A stretch of 64,000 nucleotides of DNA from Dinoroseobacter shibae DFL 12 = DSM 16493 (GTDB taxonomy: Bacteria; Pseudomonadota; Alphaproteobacteria; Rhodobacterales; Rhodobacteraceae): NCBI RefSeq assembly GCF_000018145.1, contig NC_009959.1:1-64000 (forward strand), read 5' to 3'. Of this stretch, positions 7,713 through 8,821 are shown one piece after another. The position numbers were made by a program, and so were the translations under genes. Position 1 is the stretch's first letter; every line of letters begins with the position of its first letter. The notes beneath the pieces were generated by a model. The model was not told the DNA's origin, searched no databases, and worked only from the letters and a program-made list of their open reading frames with translations.

Positions 7713-8699
7713 TCAGGCGGCGACCGGCTCGGCGGGGGTGGTCAGCCCGGTGAGGGCTGCGGTCAGCTCCCACAGCTCTGCGGAGCGGGCGGCATCCGTG
7801 GCCTTGGTGGACAGGCCCTGGGCAAAGGCGCTGCGGCCTTCGCGCTGGCGGTTGCCCCAGCTCCAATGCACGCCGGACTGCGCGAACTCCGGGTCGGCCA
7901 CGACCATGGCGACCCGTTCGCCGGACAGGGCCTGGCTGACATAGCCCTTGGTGACGTTTTTCTGGAACCAGGGGAAGATCGTCTGGAACGCCTTGGGCGT
8001 GTCGCGGAACAGCGGCGTGTCCGCGACGCAGCCGGGATAGAGCGTGGCGAAGACGATCCCGGTCCGCGCGTGGTGGCGGGTGTGCAGCTCCCGGCTCATC
8101 ATCATGGTGCAGAGCTTGCTGTCCTTGTAGGCCTTGCCCGCCTTGAACGGCTTGCCGTCGATCATCGCCACCGGGGCGCGGAAGCCGGCCTTCAGCCCGG
8201 CAAAATCGCCCAGGTCCGCCGGGGCGGGGATCGGGACCTTGCCGCCGAATTCCTCGGAATTGGCGGTCACGGTGCCCAGGGTGATCAGCCGCGGGGACGG
8301 GGCGCCCTCCAGCAGCGGCAGCATCAGGTTGGCGAGCAGGAAATGCCCGAAATAGTTGGTCGCGACGCTGATCTCGAACCCGTCGGGGGAGCGGCCGGGC
8401 TGGGTCAGCCGGGGCTTATAGACCGCGGCGTTGCACACCAGCGCATCGAGGCTGTCATGGTCGCGGGCGATGTTGGCGTGGAAGGCGCGCACGCTGGCCA
8501 GCGATCCGAGGTCCAGATGGGCCAGCGCGTAGCGGCCCGGGTCCAGATCGAGCGACCGCGCCGCCGCCTCGGCCTTGGCCAGGTCCCGGCAGGCCATGGT
8601 CACATGCCAGCCCCGGTCGATCAGGGATTTCGTCGCGTGCAGGCCCACCCCGGAGGAGGCGCCGGTGACGATGGCACGGGGCATGGGGTCAAGGGTCAT
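7713..8699 (-). CDS. por: Light-dependent protochlorophyllide reductase (LPOR)
   Basis: 328-aa SDR-family enzyme that reduces protochlorophyllide to chlorophyllide with NADPH and light. ATG 8699 follows GGGAGG seven bases upstream. Hallmarks: TGASSGVG (12-19), LVCNAAVY (87-94), an LPOR insertion region (about 145-190), catalytic Tyr191 and Lys195 in YKDSK, Cys224 in TLYPGC, and the C-terminal SGVHWSWGN block (275-283). These match LPOR and not ordinary SDRs. LPORs are best known from cyanobacteria and plants; a few are reported from alphaproteobacterial aerobic phototrophs such as Dinoroseobacter shibae. No other bacteriochlorophyll gene is in the window. A PpsR-type box lies about 105 bp upstream of the start. 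Confidence 0.92.
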
Positions 8700-8769
8700 G
8701 TCGCGGCCTCCCAAGGCAGGTGAGAAACGCCCCCCAAGCGCGGTCTGGTGCACGAGGGAGGCGACACTC

Positions 8770-8797
8770 AAATTAACATGTACAATTCGGATTTCAA
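8770..8797 (-). promoter_or_regulatory. Candidate sigma-70 promoter for LPOR
   Basis: On the minus strand, a -35-like TTGAAA (8797-8792) is followed after 16 bp by a -10-like TAATTT (8775-8770), within an AT-rich patch in otherwise GC-rich DNA. It is about 70 bp upstream of the LPOR start. The assignment rests on position and base composition only. Confidence 0.4.
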
Positions 8798-8803
8798 CAA
8801 AAA

Positions 8804-8821
8804 TGTAAACTGAAGTTGACA
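8804..8821. promoter_or_regulatory. PpsR/CrtJ-type operator (TGT-N12-ACA)
   Basis: TGTAAACTGAAGTTGACA matches exactly the TGT-N12-ACA consensus bound by PpsR/CrtJ, the aerobic repressor of bacteriochlorophyll genes. It ends six bases upstream of the candidate -35 box of LPOR. An adjoining inverted repeat GACA-GTTT-TGTC (8818-8829) could be a second partial site. The site also lies upstream of the divergent mipA-like gene. Confidence 0.6.

Follow-up and report, generated by a model that had tools for sequence, protein, structure and literature searches.

A predicted PpsR-type operator upstream of the replicon-borne light-dependent protochlorophyllide oxidoreductase gene of Dinoroseobacter shibae

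The known light-dependent protochlorophyllide oxidoreductase (LPOR) of Dinoroseobacter shibae, which stands beside the dark enzyme BchLNB, has probably been drawn into the chromosomal PpsR regulon by a predicted operator at positions 8804-8821 of the window, and would then be made mainly in the dark and act at the return of light; the probability of this reading is put at roughly three in four. The window is the whole stretch of DNA that was analysed, bases 1-64000 of a 72,296-base D. shibae replicon. The enzyme, the species and the location on a 72-kb replicon are already published and the core finding is known, whilst the operator, a predicted addition to the known PpsR regulon, looks new. 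If it works, the operator puts a plasmid-borne enzyme of cyanobacterial type under the chromosomal repressor of photosynthesis, and it sharpens a question raised in the passages of PMC4373377 used here, that of how transcriptional control makes an acquired LPOR useful to its host. The features of the region are:

7713..8699, minus strand: LPOR, light-dependent protochlorophyllide oxidoreductase, 328 aa, Dshi_4160 in the literature (open reading frame, NCBIfam model, tree)
8700..8803, minus strand: leader and presumed LPOR promoter, without a sigma-70 consensus (consensus scan)
8779..8809, no strand assigned: two weak PpsR-like matches, one of 10.25 bits at 8792-8809 that overlaps the main site and one of 8.67 bits at 8779-8796
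8804..8821, no strand assigned: predicted PpsR operator, TGTAAACTGAAGTTGACA, on the LPOR strand TGTCAACTTCAGTTTACA, 122 bp upstream of the start codon, 21.65 bits
8902..9714, plus strand: divergent MipA/OmpV-family gene, sharing the intergenic region with LPOR (domain match, gene table)

The preliminary description had read the product as an LPOR, and this is borne out by the NCBIfam equivalog model TIGR01289, which matches residues 7-319 with 452.4 bits against a cut-off of 331.35, and by the position of the protein on an LPOR branch with a support of 99. The blocks YKDSK, TLYPGC and SGVHWSWGN are all present in the product, its closest matches of solved structure are cyanobacterial LPORs, and the LPOR features given in the legend to Fig. 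1B of PMC7947762, mapped onto residues by ourselves, are a nucleotide-binding motif (TGASSGVG, residues 12-19), a Tyr-Lys pair (Y191 and K195) and four cysteines (C37, C89, C197 and C224), all common to a second LPOR. That the protein is a generic short-chain dehydrogenase and no LPOR is extremely improbable; it does belong to the SDR superfamily (Pfam adh_short), but the next-best family reaches 125 bits, under its own cut-off, the tree groups the protein with proteobacterial LPORs and not with generic SDRs, and activity of the D. shibae LPOR is published, the functional proof for Dshi_4160 being credited to Kaschner et al. 2014 (as cited in passages of PMC4373377). The open reading frame is equated with Dshi_4160 by its replicon, size and product and not by a common locus tag, and as far as tested the protein does not differ from the published enzyme (DsLPOR), which comes from the same species and replicon. 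A PpsR-type operator upstream is not mentioned in the passages on DsLPOR covered here.

The suggestion of a plasmid-type replicon proved correct, the LPOR having a published location on this 72,296-bp replicon of D. shibae, and passages of PMC4373377 describe the 72-kb replicon of strain DFL12 as a chromid carrying Dshi_4160, with the benefit of light under starvation gone in a mutant that lacks it. Bases 1-25000 of the window are 100% identical to D. shibae pDFL36-05 (NZ_CP097552) and to NZ_CP097545, and the gene table of one of these two identical plasmid records names the open reading frame protochlorophyllide reductase. It had also been stated that no other photosynthesis gene accompanies LPOR, and none was found on the whole replicon, on which the proteins of a 120-kb chromosomal stretch containing the photosynthesis cluster gave only ABC-transporter-type matches (tblastn, E 1e-6). 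The idea that a foreign base composition betrays a recent transfer was rejected, the third-position G+C of LPOR being 0.918 and that of its neighbours 0.86-0.91.

The search proposed for bchLNB, pufLM and ppsR found all of them on the chromosome. pufL and pufM are on contig 1 inside a cluster at 3.68-3.73 Mb (cluster genes are named by eye unless profile-tested); PpsR (TIGR02040, 468 bits, cut-off 275), BchF, BchN, BchL, AcsF, PufL and PufM are over their NCBIfam cut-offs, and BchB is over that of TIGR01278 and under those of two other BchB models.

Scanning one genome per species brought up 369 relatives, of which the best 80 were retained. The tree, 81 rows including the window and with L018 left out as the same stretch as L024, was made by a quick method and rooted on cyanobacteria. 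In this tree of the best 80 of 369 relatives the 24 cyanobacterial rows split from the 57 others (96 SH-aLRT), and the comparison that had been called for places the window LPOR apart from the cyanobacterial rows and with proteobacterial and gemmatimonad LPORs, as in the AAPB LPOR clade of Chernomor et al. (passages of PMC7947762). Its branch holds 8 alphaproteobacterial rows among these best 80 of 369, the window and 7 more, the closest being L021 with 79% identity, and two of the 8, L022 and L027, are from MAGs labelled Sphingomonadales. Gemmatimonad LPORs appear at three places in the tree of the best 80 of 369, with 3 rows basal to the proteobacterial LPORs, 3 within the beta rows and 1 elsewhere in the beta rows (those concerned include L046, L051, L089 and L070), a hint, from a quick tree only, at more than one transfer. 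Four Polynucleobacter-type beta rows (L084, L093, L098, L099), which form a long branch (0.78) in the same tree of the best 80 of 369, have LPOR directly adjoining bchL and bchB, light and dark enzymes being neighbours there.

Around D. shibae LPOR is rare in its family, being found in 2 of 394 genomes drawn from it, and the sole other genome of the host genus in that draw lacks it; among 72,556 plasmid records LPOR is in three, two from D. shibae and one from Pseudanabaena (53%). Within its alphaproteobacterial clade the gene is mostly solitary while its hosts retain the dark enzyme, since 6 of the 7 other clade loci, all except L022, have no cluster-gene neighbours at the threshold used (tblastn with proteins of the 120-kb stretch, best 80 of 369). 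By the same comparison, again among the best 80 of 369, cluster genes adjoin LPOR in 19 of 28 beta loci, a weak hydrolase match in L069 being uncounted, and in 2 of 21 other alpha loci (L022 and L043). BchB is over cut-off in 16 of the 17 LPOR-bearing genomes searched, which were hand-picked from 82 loci and of which two (G380, G397) appear to be one genome.

The case for the operator had been made from an exact TGT-N12-ACA site, and this is present at 8804-8821, but the bare pattern is no rarer than chance, with 4 found in the window where 3.66 are expected and 469 in the genome compared to 415 for the reversed pattern; it was therefore rejected as evidence. It is the full 18-base sequence that lies far above chance, by a matrix and by an extended pattern, and that makes 8804-8821 a well-supported new prediction of a PpsR operator. 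The matrix is symmetric and was made from 11 sites of the chromosomal cluster with the LPOR site left out. These are 11 of the 21 TGT-N12-ACA matches at 3681718-3730031, chosen by their place near gene starts, a choice that could flatter the operator; the 10 omitted matches are mostly intragenic, and two score 20.0 and 20.7 anyway. The LPOR site has 21.65 bits, the leave-one-out range of the training sites being 10.85-27.05, and the runner-up on all 72,296 bases of the replicon has 10.25 bits and overlaps the LPOR site. Across the 120-kb chromosomal stretch 13 places have at least 15 bits, all of them at 3,681,718-3,728,011 in the cluster and 11 of them training sites. A score of 21.65 bits was reached nowhere in 3 Mb of simulated replicon-like DNA, and at about 0.3 places per Mb in DNA simulated from the LPOR intergenic region. 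The extended pattern, TGTMA-N8-TKACA, occurs at 20 places in 4.42 Mb and its reversed control at none.

The weak matches at 8779-8809 are possibly a degenerate second site or merely A+T-rich sequence. A plausible promoter directly downstream of the site, also part of the preliminary description, is unconfirmed, as no sigma-70 consensus was found at 8690-8910 by a crude scan which does not fit all promoters of the host group. The divergent MipA/OmpV gene at 8902-9714 might share control by the operator with LPOR.

Among the best 80 of 369 relatives, 4 of the 8 clade rows have a site of at least 15 bits within 150 bp upstream of LPOR, where dinucleotide shuffles give an expectation of 0.02; this threshold was fixed after the scores were known, and the lowest site counted has 15.3. 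The scores are 21.7 for the window, 20.2 for L022, 18.4 for L025 (Loktanella fryxellensis) and 15.3 for L023, and the sites start 122, 57, 56 and 47 bp upstream of the respective start codons. L021, L024, L026 and L027 have no site in the last 150 bp, though PpsR is over cut-off in their genomes. With at least 14 bits, and again for the best 80 of 369, sites are upstream of LPOR in 4 of 23 alpha rows (L018 counted beside its twin L024), these being the four operator-bearing rows and no others, in 1 of 28 beta, 0 of 7 gemmatimonad and 3 of 24 cyanobacterial rows. The cyanobacterial matches were set aside as A+T-rich chance, shuffles having reached 22.9-25.1, and the beta row L069 has 23.1 bits with CGT in place of TGT in the first half-site. 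When the alpha loci were scanned over their full 3.8-9 kb, sites of at least 13 bits were found only in the window, L022, L023 and L025 (best 80 of 369). An earlier conservation test counted the bare motif within 300 bp upstream of LPOR and gave 5 of 23 alpha, 2 of 28 beta, 2 of 7 gemmatimonad and 1 of 24 cyanobacterial rows (best 80 of 369); since in several groups motifs with another spacing were about as frequent, the matrix took its place.

The three other clade loci with an operator at LPOR have different gene neighbourhoods. In L022 the LPOR gene is flanked by a B12-binding-domain gene and by a bchH-like start, both of which have a strong site of their own; the first 48 residues of the bchH-like open reading frame match BchH weakly (E 3e-4). 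PpsR is found in one of these three genomes, that of Loktanella fryxellensis (G398), and was not found in those of L022 and L023 (G395 and G396, both MAGs); BchB is also missing from G395, and the two absences together suggest that this is an incomplete or mixed bin.

How such an operator might act can be judged from what is published on D. shibae PpsR, which according to passages of PMC10890935 represses bchF in blue and white light, in a manner dependent on light and independent of oxygen, and is aided by B12-PpaA and relieved in the dark by LdaP, with bchF escaping from PpsR once two half-sites are changed. The LPOR site is of the same TGT-N12-ACA type as those of this regulon and matches the cluster sites beyond the half-sites, but it is on another replicon, is one strong site where the bchF promoter has several, and has a target of cyanobacterial type. 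Neither Dshi_4160 nor LPOR appears in the main text of PMC10890935, the paper that describes the ppsR mutant of D. shibae; the main text of PMC7947762 has no match for PpsR or promoter, and no PpsR-LPOR link was found in the passages covered from papers that treat both topics.

If PpsR does control LPOR, as the sequence leads us to propose, the one strong operator would make transcription of the gene follow that of the photosynthesis gene cluster. As D. shibae PpsR is a light repressor from which LdaP gives relief in darkness, the cell would produce LPOR mainly in the dark, together with the products of the other bch genes. The enzyme would then wait loaded with substrate until light returns, when it would use NADPH and light to reduce protochlorophyllide, an activity taken from the literature, next to the chromosomal BchLNB. 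The earlier picture of an enzyme for lit, oxygenated water stands in so far as the enzyme suits such water, but repression in light by PpsR predicts dark transcription; the proposed tie to a cluster elsewhere is likewise supported by sequence for the chromosomal cluster and the operator, with PpsR control itself a matter of prediction. A more far-reaching version, which we regard as tentative and rather doubtful as a whole, is that a light-requiring LPOR under a light-active repressor is made in the dark through PpsR and LdaP, kept in store together with NADPH and protochlorophyllide and set off at dawn, as a bacterial parallel to the LPOR of seedlings. In part of the clade the acquired gene would then have entered the regulon of its host with an operator of its own, either gained or brought along.

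Capture by PpsR has evidence against it in the 4 of 8 clade LPORs without a site despite ppsR, in the two operator-bearing MAGs without PpsR, and in the single strong site, which no sigma-70 consensus overlaps in the crude scan. Further evidence against it comes from the starvation data in Table 1 of PMC4373377 (seen in passages), where in light/dark compared to dark Dshi_4160 is higher (array +0.59, qPCR +8.11 log2) and bchY lower (array -0.73, qPCR -2.42), array and qPCR disagreeing in size; these opposite movements argue against a simple common repression by light. The Dshi_4160-4172 region is also reported to be raised in light/dark starvation, and lpor to be controlled by light and nutrients. 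All of this, together with the half of the LPOR clade that has no site, would suit control of LPOR mainly by light-stress and starvation signals, with the neighbouring singlet-oxygen-response genes, the PpsR-like site being unused or a relic. We consider this unlikely, as no other site on the replicon comes near that of LPOR, which agrees with the cluster sites over the N12 core as well and recurs at LPOR in three other clade loci of different neighbourhood. The two kinds of control may also act together.

A second input, or PpsR as an activator, would reconcile the operator with the starvation data. In the latter case PpsR at its single upstream site would be an activator or light-dependent switch, with LPOR rising in light as the bch genes fall, and passages of PMC10890935 offer some encouragement in that the CrtJ of R. 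capsulatus can activate genes by virtue of the long isoform of AerR and that PpaA mutants of D. shibae have raised bchF-lacZ in light; D. shibae PpsR acted as a repressor at the bchF promoter in the same source, however, and such a role at LPOR appears less likely still than control by stress and starvation. Capture by the PpsR regulon with relief in the dark is thus the reading preferred here.

By position the 20 extended sites consist of 6 in the cluster (bchF among their targets), that of LPOR and 13 others, with a chance share of some 3-4 by rough arithmetic, and in our own reading 11 of the 19 besides LPOR are at photosynthesis or tetrapyrrole genes. Those off the cluster include sites at bchE (TIGR02026), at a PUCC gene (PF03209), at an FrhB-type gene (PF04422/PF04432) which we take to be bciB, at hemE (TIGR01464; hemC on the opposite side, by eye) and, at C1:781325-781342 (L102), at a PpaA-like B12-binding-domain gene (PF02310). 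Of the remaining 8, two are near a Tet-family-like MFS transporter that is below all Tet cut-offs, and there is one each near a ferredoxin-NADP reductase-like gene, folE2, a PhoX gene, a PAS_4-domain gene, an open reading frame ending 82 bases before another (L105) and a short open reading frame (L101). It is possible that the strong sites off the cluster mark unreported PpsR targets. On C1 the sites of the Tet-like MFS pair are at 1041244 and 1041275, and those of the ferredoxin-NADP reductase-like gene, folE2 and the FrhB-type, bciB-like gene at 1177434, 2548100 and 3432668. PpaA-like B12-binding-domain genes away from a ppsR locus and with a PpsR-type site upstream were seen twice, in L102 (C1:781325-781342) and at L022:131-967.
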